A DNA stretch of 64,000 bases. It comes from Bdellovibrionales bacterium (GTDB lineage Bacteria; Bdellovibrionota; Bdellovibrionia; Bdellovibrionales; Bdellovibrionaceae). The notes under the pieces were generated by a model that did no database searches, had not been told where the DNA came from, and saw nothing but the letters and a program-made list of their open reading frames with translations. Every line of letters begins with the position of its first letter. Within the stretch, counting starts at the first letter, position 1. The stretch covers positions 967,626-1,031,625 of the forward strand of contig JAFEAQ010000011.1 in the NCBI GenBank assembly GCA_018266295.1, read 5' to 3'. Shown here in pieces: positions 9,217 to 42,910 of the stretch. The position numbers and the translations under genes were made by a program.

Positions 9217-9573
9217 ATGGAAGGCAAAATCCAACAACTCGTTAACGAACTTTCTAAAAATGCACGCGTACAAGCGATGATTCACGAAGTACACGTATTG
9301 CAAAATAAATTGAACGACGAGATGAACAAAACTCTCAACAAATTCAAAAAATCTGCTGGTGACGTCGAGAAAAATATCTTGTCATACAAAAAGCAATTGC
9401 TTGCTCAAAAAACAAAAATTGAAAAAGAATTGCGCGCAAAAGCAAAATCTCTTCAAGTAAAGCCAGCTAAGAAAACGGCTAAATCTGCGAAGGCTACAGT
9501 TAAGAAAACAGCAACAGCTGCTAAGAAAAAAACAACGGCCGCTAAAAAGACTGTTTCTAAAAAACGCGCTTAG
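9217..9573 (+). CDS. Histone H1-like Lys/Ala-rich protein
   Basis: 118 residues in two parts: an N-terminal helical, coiled-coil-like half (residues 1-75) and a C-terminal tail built of Lys/Ala/Thr repeats (KPAKKTAKSAKATVKKTATA and on) like the tails of eukaryotic H1 and bacterial Hc1/AlgP-type proteins. It probably binds DNA or RNA non-specifically and may help compact the nucleoid, which would fit a predator with a condensed attack phase; that link is inference. AAGGAG at about 9203 serves as the ribosome site. A strong terminator follows directly, so it is likely monocistronic. A GC-rich dyad upstream (9141-9161) is unexplained. Confidence 0.75.
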   Translation: MEGKIQQLVNELSKNARVQAMIHEVHVLQNKLNDEMNKTLNKFKKSAGDVEKNILSYKKQLLAQKTKIEKELRAKAKSLQVKPAKKTAKSAKATVKKTATAAKKKTTAAKKTVSKKRA

Positions 9574-9629: not shown

Positions 9630-9813
9630 ATTCTCCAAACGGGACAGCCATCTGTTTATTATAAACTGTGATGTTTAAAATCATCACAGATGCAGCGGTC
9701 CTGTTCCCCTGTCCGTCGCGGAACATCTCCTCGATAAAAAGAACTAAGCTTCAATACGGCTCTCTCCACTTGAATGGATTACAAAGCCCACTTCATCGAG
9801 GTGGGTTCTTTTT
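9630..9813 (+). ncRNA. Candidate structured small RNA ending in a terminator
   Basis: The ~180 bases between two terminator-like hairpins hold no convincing reading frame. They show nested complementarity: CTGTGATG/CATCACAG around an 8-base loop (about 9666-9689), a competing CATCTGT/ACAGATG pair, and GGGACAG pairing with CTGTCC further on. At the 3' end AGCCCAC...GTGGGTT followed by CTTTTT (9785-9813) looks like a terminator. A TATAAA box occurs near 9660. Together this suggests a short independent transcript, but no known family (6S, tmRNA, SRP, RNase P) is recognisable. It could also be an ordinary intergenic spacer. Confidence 0.3.
9785..9813 (+). terminator. Terminator-like hairpin before the Cys-repeat protein gene
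   Basis: AGCCCACTT (from 9785) pairs with AGGTGGGTT (to 9807), including G-T wobbles, with a CATCG loop and CTTTTT after it. It cannot belong to the H1-like gene, which already has its own terminator. Confidence 0.6.
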
Positions 9814-9870
9814 CGCCAAACCGGAACTTGTGCTAATCTCCGTCGGCATTCAAAATAACGAGGAGAATCC

Positions 9871-10428
9871 ATGAAACTATCTATGTTTGTCGGCGCTTGT
9901 TTGATGATGTTATCTTTTGCGACCCAGGCACAAACTCCACCAAATCCGTATTGTTATATTCAGAATAACAACCCGCGAGCGTGTCAAAACACTCCAGGCT
10001 GCTACTTTAATCCAGGCCAAGATTTTTCATCTTGCCAAGGCCGCCCGGGACTCCCAGACACACAAACTCAGTTCTGCTACGTCAACAACAACGACCCACA
10101 GGCTTGCCAAAGAACTCCATTCTGTCAGTGGATCAACCAATCAGCACCGAGCCAATGCTCTTCAATCACTCCGGTGCCACCAAGCCAACAACAACCAAAT
10201 AATCCTTACTGCTACATCCAGAATAACAACCCCAGCGCTTGCCAAAATACTCCGGGTTGCCAGTACGTCGCCGGCCAAAACCTTTCTTCCTGCGAAGGCC
10301 GCCCAGGCTTGCCATCAACCCAGACGCAGTTCTGTTATGTGAATAACAACAACCCGCAAGCTTGTCAGCGAACGCCGTTTTGTCAGTGGATAGACCAAAG
10401 CATCCCCGGCCAGTGCGTCTCGAGATAA
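9871..10428 (+). CDS. Secreted Cys-rich repeat protein (four 4-Cys modules)
   Basis: 185 residues with a signal peptide (about 1-20). The mature protein consists of four modules of the form C-x9-C-x5-C-x10-C. The Cys positions are 28/38/44/55, 69/79/85/96, 114/124/130/141 and 155/165/171/182, all with the same spacing. Modules 1 and 3 share YCYIQNNNP, modules 2 and 4 FCYVNNN, so a pair of modules has been duplicated with an 86-residue period. Sixteen cysteines point to a disulfide-rich extracellular or periplasmic protein. The pattern resembles small eukaryotic-type Cys-rich domains, but I do not recognise a family. GAGGAG precedes the ATG and a terminator follows, so it is a single-gene unit. 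Confidence 0.8.
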   Translation: MKLSMFVGACLMMLSFATQAQTPPNPYCYIQNNNPRACQNTPGCYFNPGQDFSSCQGRPGLPDTQTQFCYVNNNDPQACQRTPFCQWINQSAPSQCSSITPVPPSQQQPNNPYCYIQNNNPSACQNTPGCQYVAGQNLSSCEGRPGLPSTQTQFCYVNNNNPQACQRTPFCQWIDQSIPGQCVSR

Positions 10429-10450: not shown

Positions 10451-10480
10451 AAAGGGCTCCCGAAAAGGAGCCCTTTTTTA
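10451..10480 (+). terminator. Rho-independent terminator after the Cys-repeat gene
   Basis: 10-bp perfect stem AAAGGGCTCC/GGAGCCCTTT with a 6-base loop and a T-run. Confidence 0.92.
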
Positions 10481-10641
10481 TTCCCCAAAGCGCCGGTTTC
10501 GGCGCCGCGTGAGCCTGTTTCTTGTCCAAACCTCGCTAGAGTGCCCGAAAAACCGCCATGACGGCCCGCTCCCTCCGCCCAGGACTTTATCCCCTCTGGG
10601 GAGTGTGATAACTTGTGACCCAAATTTCCAAGGAACGTGGC

Positions 10642-13536
10642 ATGAAATCAAACACCTTCTCATTGAACTATTCCAGTAACTCTCCTCAAAAAGAATTCAT
10701 GGGCCGCCACATCGGTCCCCGTGATGAAGATATTCAGTCCATGCTGAAAGAGCTCGGCTTTTCATCTCTTGAAGAGATGGCAAACCAAGTTGTTCCGCAA
10801 AAGATTCGTACTTCTAAAAACTATCCCATCGTCGGCAACGGCGTGTCGGAGTACGAGCTTCTTGCGAACCTCAAAAAAACAATTTCGAAAAACAAAGTCA
10901 GCAGATCTTTGCTGGGCATGGGTTTCTACGACACCATCACTCCGAGCGTGATCCAAAGAAACATTCTCGAGAATCCAGTATGGTACACGGCTTACACTCC
11001 TTACCAGGCCGAGATCGCCCAAGGCCGTCTCGAAGCGCTTCTGAATTTCCAAACGATGGTGATTGACCTTACCGGCATGGAAATCTCAAATAGCTCGCTC
11101 TTGGATGAAGGTTCTGCCGCGGCTGAAGCGATGGCTATGGCTCACGCTTCGCACAAGCATGACAACGTCGACAGCTTCGTAGTTTCTCCGAAGATGCATC
11201 CGCATGTGATTGAGGTTTTGAAAACCCGCGCGGAGCCTTTGGGCCTCAACATGATCATTCAGGATCCTAAAACTTTTGATTTCAAAACTCCGGTCTTTGC
11301 CGCTTTCGTTCAGTACCCTGACACTGAAGGCGTGATCGAAGATTACAAAGAAATGACTGACAAGTATCACAATGCTCATGCCATGGTTGTGGCAAGTGTT
11401 GATTTGTTGTCACTCACACTTCTGACTCCGCCGGGAGAATGGGGTGCGGATATCTGTGTGGGGAACTCACAACGTTTCGGCGTGCCACTCGGTTTCGGTG
11501 GTCCGCATGCAGCTTTCCTGGCGACGAAAGATGTTTATAAGCGCATCATGCCAGGCCGTATCGTCGGCGTTTCTGTCGACAGCCACGGCAAGTCCGCTTT
11601 GCGTCTTGCTTTGCAAACGCGTGAGCAACACATCCGCCGCGAAAAGGCGACTTCGAATATTTGTACGGCTCAAGTGCTTCTTGCCAACATGGCAAGCATG
11701 TACGCCGTTTACCACGGTCCACAGGGTTTGAAGCAAATCGCTCAGCGCGTGAATCGTTTGGCAGCGATTACTGCCGAAGGCTTGAAGAAGCTCGGCTTCA
11801 CAACGCCGACAACGACGTACTTCGATACAATCACAGTGAACACACCAAAAGCAGCGGACATCATGAAGGCGGCCGAAGCCCTCAACATGAATTTCCGTCA
11901 CTTGGGTAACAACACTCTGGGTTTGTCACTGGATGAAACTTGCAACCTTGATACGGTGAACGATATCTTCACGGCGTTCAACCTCGGCACGAAAGCAGCC
12001 TTCACGGCGGCCGATCTCGATGCAAGCCTAACTTACAACTGGCCAACTCAGTTCGTTCGTACGAGCGCGTACTTGACTCATCCGGTATTTAACACTCACC
12101 GTTCTGAGCCAGAGATCACGCGTTACATCCACATGCTGCAAAACAAAGACATCACATTGACTCACTCAATGATCCCGCTGGGATCTTGCACAATGAAGCT
12201 CAATGCGACGACGGAACTCGTTCCGGTTTCATGGCCTGAAATCAACAAAATGCATCCGTTTGCGCCCACATCGCAAATCCAGGGTTACATCGAAATGATC
12301 CGCGACCTTGAAGCAAAACTTTGCGACATCACAGGCTTTGCCGGCGTGAGCTTGCAGCCGAACTCCGGTGCTTCTGGTGAATACGCGGGTCTTCTTGTGA
12401 TTCGTAAATACTTCATCGACAAAGGTGAAGCGCACAGAAATGTTTGCTTGATCCCAAGCTCTGCACACGGAACAAACCCTGCGTCTGCAGTGATGGCCGG
12501 CATGAAAGTGGTTGTTGTGAATTGCGATAACCAAGGCAACGTGGAAGTGGAAGACTTGAAAGCCAAAGCTCAAGAGCACAAGAAAGATCTCGCGGCTTTG
12601 ATGATCACCTACCCGTCAACTCACGGTGTGTTTGAAGAAAGCATTAAAGAAATCTGCCAAATCATCCACGATAACGGCGGCCAAGTGTACATGGACGGCG
12701 CGAATATGAATGCGCTTGTTGGCCTCTGCCGTCCGGCGGAGTTTGGCGCCGATGTCTCGCACATGAACTTGCATAAGACCTTTGCGATCCCGCACGGTGG
12801 TGGCGGCCCGGGCGTGGGCCCGATCGGTGTGGCTGAGCATTTGAAAAAATACTTGCCGACCCATAGCTTGCAACCTGAAGCCGGTCCTAAAACAGGCATC
12901 AGCGCAACGACGTCCGCTCCATGGGGAAGCGCAAGCATCCTGCCAATCTCTTGGTCTTACATCACGATGATGGGAGCTGAAGGCTTGAAGAAAGCGACTC
13001 TCGTTGCGATCTTGAACGCGAACTACATCGCGAAGAAACTGGAAGCGCATTACCCGATCGTGTACAAAGGCAAAGAAGGCCTCGTGGCTCATGAATGTAT
13101 TTTGGATTTGCGTGAAATCAAAAAAACCAGCGGCATCGACGTTGCGGACGTGGCAAAACGTCTGATGGACTATGGTTTCCATGCTCCGACGATGTCTTGG
13201 CCGGTGATTGGAACGCTCATGGTGGAACCCACTGAGAGTGAGCCGAAAGCGGAACTCGATCGTTTCATCGAAGCGATGATCTCTATTCGAAATGAAATCA
13301 AAGCGGTTGAGAGCAAGAAAATGGATTTGAAAGACAATCCACTCGTGAACTCTCCACACACAGCCGAGAGTTTGATGAAGAGCGAATGGGCTCATTCCTA
13401 CTCCCGCGAACAGGCGGCTTACCCATTAACTTGGATCCGCCAAAACAAGATCTGGCCAGCCGTTGGCCGTATCGATAACGTCTATGGCGACCGCAATTTG
13501 GTTTGCTCTTGCCCGAGCGTCGATACCTATAAGTAG
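10642..13536 (+). CDS. gcvP: Glycine dehydrogenase (decarboxylating), glycine cleavage P protein
   Basis: PLP-dependent P protein of the glycine cleavage system: it decarboxylates glycine and transfers the aminomethyl group to the lipoyl arm of GcvH. About 964 residues, single-chain form with two homologous halves, as in E. coli. The PLP lysine lies in the C-terminal half in [20 protein letters not shown]. The ATG at 10642 is chosen over an upstream GTG because AAGGAA at 10629-10634 is well placed. No glycine riboswitch is visible upstream. A terminator follows directly. The T and H genes are about 6 kb downstream, so the usual gcvT-H-P operon is split. Confidence 0.96.
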
Positions 13537-19792: not shown

Positions 19793-20896
19793 ATGGACAC
19801 ATCAAATCTGCAAAAAACCCCGCTCGCTGACGAGCACGTAAAACTCGGCGCCCGCATGGTGGATTTCGCCGGCTGGTGGATGCCGGTTCAGTACAAAGGT
19901 CTCCGCGAAGAGCACGACAACGTTCGCGCTAACGTGGGACTCTTCGATGTTTCTCACATGGGGGAAGTTCGTTTCAAGGGCCCGAAAGCTCTCGAGACTC
20001 TCCAATGGCTCACCACCAACGACGTGTCTAAACTGAACGACAACGAAGCACACTACAGCCTTTTGCCGAATGAGCAAGGCGGTTTGGTCGACGATATTAT
20101 CGTGTACTGCCTGAAAAAGAATGAAGACTACCTAGTTTGCGTGAATGCTTCGAATGCCGACAAAGACTTTGCTTGGATGGTAAAAAACAACAAGGGCGCT
20201 GACATCACCAATGAATCTTCTTACTGGGGGCAGATCGCCATTCAGGGACCAAAAGCTTTGGCTTTGATGGACAAGGTTTTTGGTTTCAAAGCCAGCGAAA
20301 TGGCGACCTTCAAAGTTCACCGTTTTGACTACAAAGGCTTCAAAGCCATCCTCGCGACCACCGGTTACACCGGCGAGCGCGGCGGCGAAGTCTTCATCGA
20401 AGCCAAGGGCACAGCGACTCTTTGGAACGATCTTTTGGCTCAAGGGGCGGAATTCGGGGTTCAACCGATCGGCCTTGGCGCCCGCGATACTTTGAGAACT
20501 GAGTTCAAAATGTCCCTTTACGGGCACGAGATCGATGACACAACGAATCCATACGAGGCGAAGCTCGGTTGGGCGATCAAACCGGCGGCTAAAGAGTTTA
20601 TTGGCAAGGGTCCGATGGTCAAAGTGAAGGAAGAAGGCCTTAAGAAGCAACTTATTGGTTTTAAGATGCTTGAGAAGGGCATTCCTCGCCAAGGTTACTC
20701 CCTGTTTTCTTTTGACAATAAAGAGATCGGAAAGGTAACTAGTGGGACTCACTCACCAACCCTGGACGAACCTATCGGAATCGCATATATTTCTTCGGAA
20801 TTTGCGGCTGAAGGGACTGAATTTGCAGTCGATATCCGCGGTCGTAAAGTGAAGGCGAAAGTATGTAAAACTCCTTTCGTCGCAAAACCTAGCTAA
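19793..20896 (+). CDS. gcvT: Aminomethyltransferase, glycine cleavage T protein
   Basis: 367 residues, normal size. T protein releases ammonia from the aminomethyl-lipoyl GcvH and passes the methylene group to tetrahydrofolate. Family motifs are visible: LGARMVDFAGWWMPVQY near the N-terminus, GLFDVSHMGEV, GYTGERGGEVF, LGARDTLRTEF and the C-terminal barrel. GGAGG at 19781-19785 precedes the ATG. gcvH follows after 29 bases, so both are one operon; gcvP is elsewhere. Confidence 0.96.
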   Translation: MDTSNLQKTPLADEHVKLGARMVDFAGWWMPVQYKGLREEHDNVRANVGLFDVSHMGEVRFKGPKALETLQWLTTNDVSKLNDNEAHYSLLPNEQGGLVDDIIVYCLKKNEDYLVCVNASNADKDFAWMVKNNKGADITNESSYWGQIAIQGPKALALMDKVFGFKASEMATFKVHRFDYKGFKAILATTGYTGERGGEVFIEAKGTATLWNDLLAQGAEFGVQPIGLGARDTLRTEFKMSLYGHEIDDTTNPYEAKLGWAIKPAAKEFIGKGPMVKVKEEGLKKQLIGFKMLEKGIPRQGYSLFSFDNKEIGKVTSGTHSPTLDEPIGIAYISSEFAAEGTEFAVDIRGRKVKAKVCKTPFVAKPS

Positions 20897-20925: not shown

Positions 20926-21312
20926 ATGACATTTCATATCCCAGAAGAACTTTACTACACTAAAGAACACGAGTGGGCTCAAGTCGACGAGAACATCGTT
21001 ACTGTTGGCATCACTGAGTTCGCACAAGAACAATTGGGCGAGATCGTGTATGTGGAACTTCCTGAAGAAGGCCAAAAAGTGACTCAAGGTCAAACTTTCG
21101 GCGTTATCGAGTCAGTAAAAGCAGCGAGTGATCTTTACTCTCCAGTTTCTGGAACTGTGATTGAAATCAACGCTGGACTTAACGATGATCCTTCTGTATT
21201 AAATGACGACGCAATGAACGAAGGCTGGTTGATCCGCATCGAAATGGATACGGAAAAAGAGCTCGCAAACCTAATGCGCGCTCCGGACTACAAAAAACTC
21301 GTTCAAACGTAA
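20926..21312 (+). CDS. gcvH: Glycine cleavage system H protein
   Basis: 128 residues. Lipoyl carrier of the glycine cleavage system. The lipoylated lysine lies in GVIESVKAASDLYSP, with the preceding TVGITEFAQEQLGEIVYVELP typical of GcvH. GAGGAG precedes the ATG. The lipoate ligase LplA encoded at 52.8-53.8 kb in this window could lipoylate this protein. A tRNA-Leu gene starts 11 bases after the stop and may be cotranscribed. Confidence 0.96.
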   Translation: MTFHIPEELYYTKEHEWAQVDENIVTVGITEFAQEQLGEIVYVELPEEGQKVTQGQTFGVIESVKAASDLYSPVSGTVIEINAGLNDDPSVLNDDAMNEGWLIRIEMDTEKELANLMRAPDYKKLVQT

Positions 21313-39583: not shown

Positions 39584-42043
39584 GTGTTTTTAAAAACCAG
39601 CCAGCTTTGGCTCGTCGTGAGCAGCATTGCGATCTTTGCAGCATGCAATCCAATGCACGCCTCAGATACTCCTGCGGAAACGTCGCTTTCATCTGCGAAA
39701 CCGGAATTACAAGCAGTGATTAAAGCAATCACACCAAATATTTGCTCGACGGTGCCTGAGTATGGGACTGCAAAAATCACCTGTCCTGCGGGGCAAACTG
39801 TTTCGGAAGTAATATTTGCGAGCTACGGCAGTCCAACAGGATCTTGTGGAGCGTTTAAAACGTCTTCATGTAATGCCGCAAACTCTCTCGATATTGTAAA
39901 AAGAGCCTGCCTTGGAAAAGCCTCCTGCTCTATCGAAGCGAACAATGGTCCTTTCGGCGACCCTTGCGAAGGCACCGGCAAATCTCTTTCAGTTCAAGTG
40001 ACGTGCTCAGATGCTGGCTCTGCGACGCCGCAACCAACCGCGACGCCAACTCCTGCACCAACTCCGACCGCAACACCTGTGAGCTCTGGAAACATCTGTG
40101 GTAAAGTCGCCGAACATGGCAATGCCAACATTGCCTGCCCCGCGGGACAAACGATCAGTAAGATTGTTTTTGCAAGCTATGGAGCCGCCACCGGTTCCTG
40201 CGGATCTTATAAAGTAGCTTCCTGCCATGCCGCAAACTCCATGACCGTCTTACAGGCCTGCGTGGGTAAAAGTTCGTGCGTGATTGCCGCGAATAACACT
40301 CCTTTCGGCGATCCGTGCGAGGGCGTGCAGAAATCTCTGACTTACGAAGTGCAGTGTTCAGGCACGGTCGTTCAACCGACGCCGACGCCGTCACAAGGTC
40401 CTGGCAGCGGTTCATGGACCTATGATCTGGATACAGATCACGCGGCATTTGCACTCTATGCGCTCAACGATAGCGGCGCTCTGGTTGCAACGCCGACGTC
40501 TTCAGGTGCGAAGCCTTATGCTTTTGCTGTCTATAACGAGTTCGGCAAAGTGGTTGCGCCTCTGTCAGCGACAGCACAAGCCAACGGAACTTATCGTTAT
40601 GCTTTGCCGACAAGTCGACTTGGTTATTTTGAAATCAAACCAACGGAGGGAAATGCTGCTGTCTTGATTCCAGCAATTGGCTCACGCCCTGCCGGCATGA
40701 TCACTTATGCAGTTCTAAAAGGCAAAGAAGCCAATCCCAGTGCGGATTTCCAAGATGAATTCACTTCCGTGCAAGGGACGACTCTTGAAGCCGGAGCCGA
40801 TTACCTCGGGAGCGGAACTTATTCATGGCTTGGGTACAGCACTTACGGAACTTCATATTACTCGTGGCGCGATTGTTCGCCGAATGAAGCCTCTGCAAGC
40901 GCTGATTGCCAAAAACACATGGCCGATGATCCCGTCGCAAACATCTATAAAACGAAGAAGATGATTCCACTCTTCTACATGAACGAATATCCATTGTGGG
41001 CCGTGGCTTCTACCAACGGCAGCGCTTTCGGATATCCGCCAAAAGATATGAATAAGTGGAAAGCACATCTCGAATACGTCGTTCCACTCATCACGCAAAG
41101 ATATCAGTTCTTGCCATTCCGCCGTTACCAAATCACTTGGGAACCAAACGATGGCTGGGGATGGTACGGAACCGATGAGCAATTCCTGCAAATTTATAGC
41201 ATCGCCTATTCGACAATTAAAAAGTACGATCCAACAGCGGTTGTGATGGGCCCAACAATTACAAACTTCGGCCCTGAGATGAAGTCGCAGCTGCAGCGCC
41301 TGCTCAGTAAAGGCCTGGGTAATTATATGAATGCTCTGAGCTGGCATCCATATCCTGCCTACAGTCAGATCTATGGCCTGAATGACGGCTGGATTGCCGA
41401 CTTCCGCGCGATGACAAATCAAGCCATGGGCCGCGTCGTTCCGATGTATCTCACCGAGAGTGGCATGAGCGACTATGAAATGGGTTTCACCGGAACTCAT
41501 CCCGTAAAGAGCAACTTCGCTGTCTATCACGGCGTCGCGAATGTTGCGATGGCATTGCTGGCAAAGAATGACGGGGCTTCGTTGCATACCTACTTTTACA
41601 CGGCCGACTATGCGTCTCAGCCGCGCTATGGATTATTCTATAACGTGACTCAGGCTTATAGCTTTGGTCCGAACAAAGTTTCTCCGAAGCCGGATGTGTC
41701 TATGATCCGTCAGGCCAACGATTTGCTGAATCACTCAAATGGAGTTGGCCGCTTGATCAATCCGTCCGGCAACACAAATCTGCAAGTCTTCTATTACCAG
41801 AACAAGCGCTCTGGCGTGTATACGTCTGTGCTCTGGGATCCGAGCGGAAATAACGGCACTATCGCTCTTCCGGTAGGAGTCGCCCAAGTCAAAGTTATGG
41901 ATGCGCACGGAAATGCTAGCATGATGAATTCAACGAACGGCGTTCTCAGCCTGACGTTGGGAATTACGCCCGTGTATGTTGAAGGAATCGCTGCCTCGGC
42001 CCTTATTGGTCTGACACCATCAGCACCTGTTGGCTCTCCGTAA
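39584..42043 (+). CDS. Lipoprotein with two SUEL-type lectin domains and a GH-A-like glycosidase domain
   Basis: 819 residues. Lipoprotein signal peptide with FAAC at residues 18-21. Residues 54-141 and 172-258 are two SUEL (sea-urchin egg lectin, Gal-lectin) domains, each with CPAGQT, IVFASYG, SCG, C-x-GKSSC and FGDPCEG-x-x-KSL motifs; a Pro/Thr linker (PTATPTPAPTPTATP) separates them. Residues ~380-700 look like a TIM-barrel glycosidase of clan GH-A: ITWEPND near 519-523 (possible acid/base Glu) and PMYLTESGMS near 620 (possible nucleophile Glu). GTG start with GAGG upstream; a hairpin terminator follows. SUEL lectins bind rhamnose/galactose and are mainly known from animals. The enzyme's substrate is unknown. 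Confidence 0.83.
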   Translation: MFLKTSQLWLVVSSIAIFAACNPMHASDTPAETSLSSAKPELQAVIKAITPNICSTVPEYGTAKITCPAGQTVSEVIFASYGSPTGSCGAFKTSSCNAANSLDIVKRACLGKASCSIEANNGPFGDPCEGTGKSLSVQVTCSDAGSATPQPTATPTPAPTPTATPVSSGNICGKVAEHGNANIACPAGQTISKIVFASYGAATGSCGSYKVASCHAANSMTVLQACVGKSSCVIAANNTPFGDPCEGVQKSLTYEVQCSGTVVQPTPTPSQGPGSGSWTYDLDTDHAAFALYALNDSGALVATPTSSGAKPYAFAVYNEFGKVVAPLSATAQANGTYRYALPTSRLGYFEIKPTEGNAAVLIPAIGSRPAGMITYAVLKGKEANPSADFQDEFTSVQGTTLEAGADYLGSGTYSWLGYSTYGTSYYSWRDCSPNEASASADCQKHMADDPVANIYKTKKMIPLFYMNEYPLWAVASTNGSAFGYPPKDMNKWKAHLEYVVPLITQRYQFLPFRRYQITWEPNDGWGWYGTDEQFLQIYSIAYSTIKKYDPTAVVMGPTITNFGPEMKSQLQRLLSKGLGNYMNALSWHPYPAYSQIYGLNDGWIADFRAMTNQAMGRVVPMYLTESGMSDYEMGFTGTHPVKSNFAVYHGVANVAMALLAKNDGASLHTYFYTADYASQPRYGLFYNVTQAYSFGPNKVSPKPDVSMIRQANDLLNHSNGVGRLINPSGNTNLQVFYYQNKRSGVYTSVLWDPSGNNGTIALPVGVAQVKVMDAHGNASMMNSTNGVLSLTLGITPVYVEGIAASALIGLTPSAPVGSP

Positions 42044-42145: not shown

Positions 42146-42910
42146 ATGCGTCTGGTGTTTTTATTTTTTTTAGCTTTAGTTTCAACGTCGCTGGCTTCTT
42201 CGACGGAAGCGGCGATGATTCCTTTTGGTTTCTGGAAACCAAAATGCTCTCCTCCATTCGCCTCTTCATGGACTCCGCGCTGGAATAATATCATCCAATA
42301 CTGGAACCTCAATGGCAGCGCGGGCTCCATCTCTGATGGAGCCACGATCCCAGCAACCATCGGTTCTGCTGGAACCGCGACAGAGCCAGGCATGGCCTAT
42401 GTTACCGGGAAAATCGGCAACGCCGTTTCTTTTAACGGCGGAAGCTACATAGACATGGGCTCGCTGGCAAACACGCTGAACCGGCCTCAGATGTCGATTG
42501 CCGCGTGGATTTACCCCACCGCGAACTCTCGCAGCACGATCGCTGGCGCAGAGTTCCTAATGAAAATTCAGTTCACTGATACCTACACCGTGCGCGTTCT
42601 TGCGAGCAAAGATGGCTTTTCTTGGGCCGGGATTATCGAATCCACCACGACCTACCCGCTGAACCGATGGCTTCATATGGTCGCTACTTATAATGGCAGT
42701 CAGCTTGTCCTTTATGCCAATGGCATTTCTGTCGGAAGCACACCGATCACCGGCAATCTTTCTTCTTCCGGCAGCTCTTTTCAAATCTCAGGCTACGATG
42801 GCTTGAATGAGATGTTTACTGGCATTATTGACGATGTGGCGGTCTGGAATACAGGTCTGACCGCTGATGAAGTGATGAGAATCTACACCGGACAGAACTG
42901 CAAACCTTAA
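42146..42910 (+). CDS. Secreted LamG / concanavalin A-like jellyroll protein
   Basis: 254 residues with a signal peptide (about 1-22). From residue ~90 on it matches a LamG-type lectin-like fold: GNAVSFNGGSYIDMG, SIAAWIYPT, NRWLHMVATYNGSQLVLYAN, then IDDVAVWNTGLTADEV at the end, a typical LamG ending. Such domains bind sugars or other ligands at the cell surface. It follows the lectin-glycosidase lipoprotein by about 100 bases after a terminator, so it likely has its own promoter. Ligand unknown. Confidence 0.82.
   Translation: MRLVFLFFLALVSTSLASSTEAAMIPFGFWKPKCSPPFASSWTPRWNNIIQYWNLNGSAGSISDGATIPATIGSAGTATEPGMAYVTGKIGNAVSFNGGSYIDMGSLANTLNRPQMSIAAWIYPTANSRSTIAGAEFLMKIQFTDTYTVRVLASKDGFSWAGIIESTTTYPLNRWLHMVATYNGSQLVLYANGISVGSTPITGNLSSSGSSFQISGYDGLNEMFTGIIDDVAVWNTGLTADEVMRIYTGQNCKP

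Follow-up and report, generated by a model that had tools for sequence, protein, structure and literature searches.

Tandem four-cysteine modules in a predicted secreted protein of a Bdellovibrionales bacterium and their possible relation to the PSI domain

The PSI domain (plexin repeat, Pfam PF01437), regarded as a hinge in animal receptors, carries a C-x-W motif. In excerpts of the paper on RON, the disulfides of the domain are given as 527-545, 536-552, 548-558, and 533-567, that is, C1-C4, C3-C6, C5-C7, and C2-C8 (PMC3405059). If C1, C3, C4, and C6 of this core are kept, two whole disulfides stay and two whole ones are lost. Tandem Cys periodicity is also described, in the excerpts available, for surface proteins of ciliates, namely the surface antigens of Paramecium and Tetrahymena (PF01508 and Ser; PMC4136848, PMC9788069), which are GPI-anchored and, in the case of Tetrahymena Ser, have 6-10 Cys per block. 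No papers on such proteins in Bdellovibrio or Bdellovibrionota, or on bacterial PSI domains, were among those listed in searches of the open-access literature.

The stretch of DNA analyzed here, referred to as the window, comprises 64,000 nucleotides of a Bdellovibrionales bacterium (assembly GCA_018266295.1, contig JAFEAQ010000011.1, positions 967,626 to 1,031,625). An ORF with an ATG start (9871..10428, plus strand) encodes a tandem-module protein of 185 aa, the window protein, and the sequence GAGGAG, which resembles a ribosome-binding site, lies 5 bases 5' of the ATG (9860..9865, plus strand). The translation begins with a Sec signal peptide, MKLSMFVGACLMMLSFATQA (9871..9930, plus strand), for which cleavage was placed by eye after residue 20; Cys10 was judged, also by eye, to be too near the protein start for a normal lipobox. 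The preliminary description of this DNA had proposed a secreted or surface factor, and the signal peptide agrees with export, while the location itself is predicted.

The identical spacing reported earlier for the four modules, C-x9-C-x5-C-x10-C, was confirmed in this ORF: module 1 (residues 28-55, 9952..10035), module 2 (residues 69-96, 10075..10158), module 3 (residues 114-141, 10210..10293), and module 4 (residues 155-182, 10333..10416), all on the plus strand. Module 3 is a duplicate of module 1 (24/32 residues), and module 4 of module 2 (27/32 residues). At position 2 after Cys in the C-x-W region, modules 2 and 4 have tryptophan (CQW), and modules 1 and 3 read CYF and CQY. The protein contains 17 Cys, one at residue 10 in the signal peptide and 16 in the four modules, and its full Cys spacing is 9,5,10 / 13 / 9,5,10 / 17 / 9,5,10 / 13 / 9,5,10. 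The linkers between the last Cys of one module and the first of the following one (13, 17, and 13 residues) are rich in Pro and Gln. The mature protein is rich in Q, P, and N, has 6 Arg, 4 Asp, and 1 Glu, lacks Lys, and is nearly neutral.

Downstream of the gene, a stem-loop followed by a T-tract forms an intrinsic terminator (10451..10476, plus strand; -17.4 kcal/mol, z -4.58 in comparison with shuffles), which supports the earlier statement that the gene has its own terminator. A terminator-like hairpin upstream (9785..9807, plus strand), a pattern match only, is consistent with the gene being transcribed alone. No consensus promoter was found between this hairpin and the ATG, and an Rfam scan near the gene gave nothing above the gathering score. 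The neighbours of the gene are a Lys-rich small protein (9217-9573) on one side and gcvP (10615-13536, PF02347) on the other. The small protein, encoded on the plus strand, is rich in Lys and Ala, resembles histone H1, had no Pfam match, and stands directly before gcvP in several relatives.

Next, the regularity of the modules was considered. In a six-frame translation of the window, the exact pattern occurred 4 times, all inside ORF 9871-10428, and relaxed spacing gave 11 more matches, which were scattered. The module pairs repeat with a period of 86 residues, as had been described. Pair 1 and pair 2 were identical at 59/74 residues (80%) and at 154/222 bases, with 35 synonymous and 15 non-synonymous codon differences; thus, 35/59 codons for identical residues differed synonymously. 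The two modules inside one pair had 13-14 of 32 residues in common. A single module was duplicated first and then the pair, and the pair duplication is old. At the aligned Cys positions, 4/8 codons differed between the pairs (TGT or TGC), and 8/8 still encoded Cys. The dN between pairs was 0.16, and synonymous sites were near saturation; the Nei-Gojobori synonymous divergence of >0.75 reflects two-fold codons and is taken to mean no more than 'near saturation'. Taken together, near-saturated synonymous sites, the dN of 0.16, and the retention of all eight Cys indicate an old framework on which purifying selection acts. The four modules did not acquire their equal spacing independently, because they arose by tandem duplication under strong constraint. 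The rarity formerly attributed to such regularity in bacteria was overstated: internal duplication of a single gene explains the exact spacing, and elsewhere in the phylum there are genomes with comparable tandem modules that are spaced differently (x7-12, x3-6, x5-11).

Searches with the full-length window protein against Pfam, NCBIfam, PHROGs, and the PDB gave no match above the cut-off or with a convincing E-value, and a full-length search in 59 relatives returned nothing besides the window gene itself and a single chance match. The Brassinosteroid 'Island' match of the window protein (E 4e-4) was rejected as a weak short match, below the cut-off and with no stretch passing alone. In plasmids, nothing better than two Rhizobium places (E 0.8) was found, and a search of phages gave none. 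The module profile A1, 32 residues long, was built from the window modules only. The window protein or A1 was also used in pattern-seeded scans of contigs from genomes and viruses, in which no match was confirmed. Among the 65 remaining family genomes, A1 found no real homologue; 5 genomes matched at E up to 0.1, and modules were absent from the weak-match loci that were read (L002, L004, and L009-L016, of which L013 was read on one strand only, and L003 in its first 200 bases only). A seven-Cys pattern gave mostly low-complexity or out-of-frame matches in the 66 family genomes; the loci read for this pattern were the window gene, L047, L062, L064, L065, L066, L070, L075, L078, and L079.

The region upstream of gcvP was also inspected. 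The gcvP gene was found in 56/61 genomes, and its upstream region was read at 30 loci, including that of the window. In 8 of the 29 relatives (L019, L028, L034, L035, L036, L037, L038, and L045), the Lys-rich gene immediately preceded gcvP, and no Cys gene separated them. Given the lack of a Cys gene before gcvP and of a family homologue, the window gene was acquired in this lineage or has disappeared from others. Both observations would also suit a mis-called ORF or an orphan gene without a selected function. However, such a gene would hardly show near-saturated synonymous change with a dN of 0.16 between its pairs and all eight aligned Cys kept, and it would not be expected to have a signal peptide, a ribosome-binding-like site, and a terminator; we consider this explanation very improbable.

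The single-module profile search suggested in the preliminary description was carried out in 368 genomes of the phylum, where the module was found in five other genomes. A1 itself detected one secreted two-module relative, in genome G350 (E 3.3e-4 for that genome). With two iterations of the module profile, A3 and A4 (E up to 0.001), modules were found in 6/368 genomes including that of the window, the others being G350 (family f26) and G146, G147, G148, and G171 (family f12). Apart from the rows of the window genome and G350, 23 of 25 further profile rows were read (L097 and L101 were left out); 5 rows, in the three genomes G146, G148, and G171, held modules, and 18 did not. The relatives start with a signal peptide, as judged by eye, or with a lipobox (L083), and have 2, 3, 4, 5, or about 15 modules. 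No gene neighbourhood hinting at function was shared among them. For the relatives L047 and L116, searches of plasmids gave no match, nor did a search of viral contigs for L116.

The nearest relative in spacing is the G350 protein (L047:1477-1749, minus strand), which is secreted like the window protein and has an MTPGCTW core. Its modules are C-x9-C-x5-C-x11-C and C-x9-C-x5-C-x9-C, but it has 91 aa and only two modules in comparison with the four of the window protein. A thionin match of L047 (E 0.29) was weak and short and was rejected. The f12 proteins L086, L104, L116, L120, L110, L121, and L127 (genomes G146, G147, and G148) also have an N-terminal signal peptide by eye, followed by 2-5 tandem four-Cys modules, many of which contain a core like N-P-x-x-C-x-x-T-P-x-C-x-W. 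However, the spacing of the f12 modules is x7-8/x5/x8, whereas that of the window modules is x9/x5/x10, and many f12 modules are rich in Arg, Asp, and Glu, with W in every A5 module, whereas the window modules are rich in Gln, Pro, and Asn. The match of L104 to hit_Bd0108 (E 0.003) was below the cut-off, covered residues 1-42, that is, the signal-peptide end only, and was rejected. The module protein L083:259-2319 (minus strand) of G148 is a lipoprotein-like protein of 687 aa with about 15 tandem modules of approximately C-x8-C-x3-5-C-x-W-x6-9-C, and it had no Pfam domain above the cut-off (best E 0.54).

Because iterated profiles absorb their own hits, the kinship of the window modules was examined with an independent profile that left out the window and combined 20 modules taken from six of the f12 proteins. 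The window modules scored 16.6-18.8 bits, whereas the means of Cys-preserving shuffles were 2.2-4.1 bits, and only 2, 2, 0, and 2 of 2000 shuffles with Cys kept in place reached the real scores of modules 1-4. Comparison of A1 with A5 by hhalign gave a probability of 94.7 over 16 columns. With the composition correction of HMMER, the window protein had an E-value of only 0.13 against the f12 profile (10000 sequences assumed), which speaks against kinship, although it was the first of 1517 window segments. In the reverse test, with the window profile, 11 chosen modules, and 2000 shuffles, the real scores of six modules were reached by 0-6 shuffles, those of four by 21-68, and that of one by 733; not all relatives thus passed, as G146a_1 (733/2000) and G147_3 (68/2000) show. 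Decoys of like spacing, L078 and L079, were reached by 247 and 829 of 2000 shuffles. These two proteins (minus strand, genomes G079 and G032) look secreted and have RTVTKTRTE-like repeat arrays around a Cys-rich stretch; they were rejected as module relatives, their C-x9-C-x5-C-x9-C being due to chance or convergence, with no similarity beyond Cys. The similarity of window and f12 modules thus appears, at the level of sequence, to extend beyond the Cys positions. With export (signal peptide by eye) and at least two tandem modules, the window protein has the features of a member of the tandem four-Cys module family.

The PSI domain and the modules have in common a C-x8/9-C...C-x-W...C core (in the window protein, with the tryptophan in modules 2 and 4 only), an extracytoplasmic setting, and a small disulfide-rich bead, and the C1-x8-C3 spacing in the excerpted account of RON is the x8 of most f12 modules (PMC3405059). 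Ten full-length relatives were scanned with PF01437 (cut-off 23.1 bits), and 4 of them matched above the cut-off: L110 (47.4 bits, E 2.5e-12), L121 (36.2 bits, E 7.6e-9), L116 (30.7 bits, E 3.9e-7), and L086 (28.7 bits, E 1.7e-6). These distant relatives matched the first two thirds of the profile. In a PSI scan of 290 phylum genomes, 7 matched at E up to 0.01, of which one (G147) was over the cut-off, and none of 14 control genomes matched. The window protein had no match to PF01437 at E up to 10, and A6 member 1 had none at E up to 1; because its own match is absent, the window protein is not filed as a PSI member. The matrix-type domain formerly suspected here holds up in part, through the remote relatives above the PSI cut-off, although not for the window protein itself. 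Each window module has four Cys in place of the eight Cys and four disulfides of a PSI domain, modules 1 and 3 lack the tryptophan, the flanking Sema, integrin, and IPT domains of PSI proteins are absent as judged by size and Pfam, and the beads stand in tandem. We infer from the spacing and the C-x-W motif that the module Cys may correspond to PSI C1, C3, C4, and C6.

A convergent Cys-rich repeat, that is, disulfide beads without real PSI kinship as in unrelated Cys-periodic surface proteins such as the ciliate antigens, would account for the failure of the window protein in the Pfam PSI test, for the passing of only 4/10 relatives, and for four rather than eight Cys per module. Two of 20 A6 rows touched Paramecium_SA (PF01508) at E 0.025 or worse, while the window protein, which is much shorter than the ciliate antigens, was absent from the Pfam matches for this family. 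However, the PSI matches were lost once non-Cys residues were shuffled (0/9 Cys-preserving shuffles of L110 matched PF01437, while its real mature sequence gave E 1.1e-12), and the similarity of window and f12 modules beyond the Cys positions was not seen in the like-spaced decoys. We regard convergence as less probable than PSI kinship. The structure prediction proposed earlier also leaves room for it: AlphaFold2 gave a pLDDT of 52 for one sequence and a pLDDT of 62 with a pTM of 0.37 for 20 module pairs, and the models gave each module a short helix together with a beta hairpin, at low confidence. Foldseek gave one match at E 9, no VIA match had a Z of 2 or more, and there was no PDB match; fold matching of these models, including recognition of the cysteine-knot fold of PSI, is uninformative because their confidence is too low.

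We favour the reading that the window protein is a divergent, minimal PSI-like bead protein (four Cys and two disulfides per bead) that is secreted and serves in multivalent extracytoplasmic adhesion or as a spacer, and give it a probability of about 0.5, its function being deduced. The Sec signal peptide would export the chain, which periplasmic DsbA-type enzymes would oxidise; the genome has several DsbA-family genes over the cut-off, and no DsbB was found in it. In each bead, the disulfides would be Cys I-Cys III and Cys II-Cys IV, equivalent to PSI Cys1-Cys4 and Cys3-Cys6, and the remaining two PSI disulfides would be absent. The result would be four rigid beads of ~30 residues, each with two disulfides, on Pro/Gln-rich linkers of 13-17 residues, together forming an extended and protease-resistant protein that would be periplasmic, located on the surface, or extracellular. 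Its role would be multivalent adhesion, scaffolding, or spacing and not enzymatic. A binding or spacer role is favoured because there is no catalytic signature, the composition is neutral, and the framework is kept while the surfaces diverge.

A secreted antimicrobial, toxin, or protease inhibitor that acts on prey or competitors and is stabilized by disulfides would likewise be small, Cys-rich, and under strong purifying selection. However, a search at E up to 10 matched the window protein to no family of toxins or inhibitors. The protein is nearly neutral and Lys-free, has no conserved reactive-loop-like residues, and has no obvious immunity gene adjoining it, and its f12 relatives vary greatly away from the framework and carry many charged residues. 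We consider this role improbable. The likeness to defensins or venom proteins put forward in the preliminary description found no support either, since no such family matched the window protein in Pfam (E up to 10) and the protein is rich in Q, P, and N and free of Lys.

If the bead reading is right, a domain regarded as a hinge in animal receptors also exists in bacteria, in a minimal tandem form with half its disulfides, and such PSI-like beads are secreted by relatives of bacterial predators. The PSI-core reading would yield a clean, testable disulfide prediction (I-III and II-IV) and a very small repeat scaffold, and it would open a way to trace where PSI came from. A bolder version, which we regard as rather doubtful, is that a minimal module with two disulfides, either ancestral to animal PSI or an offshoot of it, exists in this bacterial phylum, where secreted proteins and lipoproteins contain it as tandem beads, with the window protein as its most divergent and most regular form; the PSI core would then be a pre-metazoan extracellular module common to bacteria and eukaryotes. 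If the PSI link fails, there would still be a conserved disulfide-bead family, and the window protein matches no Pfam or NCBIfam model.

Other genes in the window were also noted. An 819-aa protein (39584-42043, plus strand) with 19 Cys and a lipoprotein-like start has two stretches that match the SUEL (galactose/rhamnose-binding) lectin domain (E 1.6e-34), and it is followed by a Laminin_G_3 protein (42146-42910, plus strand; E 1.7e-23), so that two eukaryote-like adhesion proteins stand side by side. They suggest that the organism invests in extracellular binding proteins, which is context for the bead protein and not proof of its function. The gcvP gene (10615-13536) is separated by about 6 kb from gcvT and gcvH (19793-20896 and 20926-21312), which follow it in the same direction and do not adjoin it.
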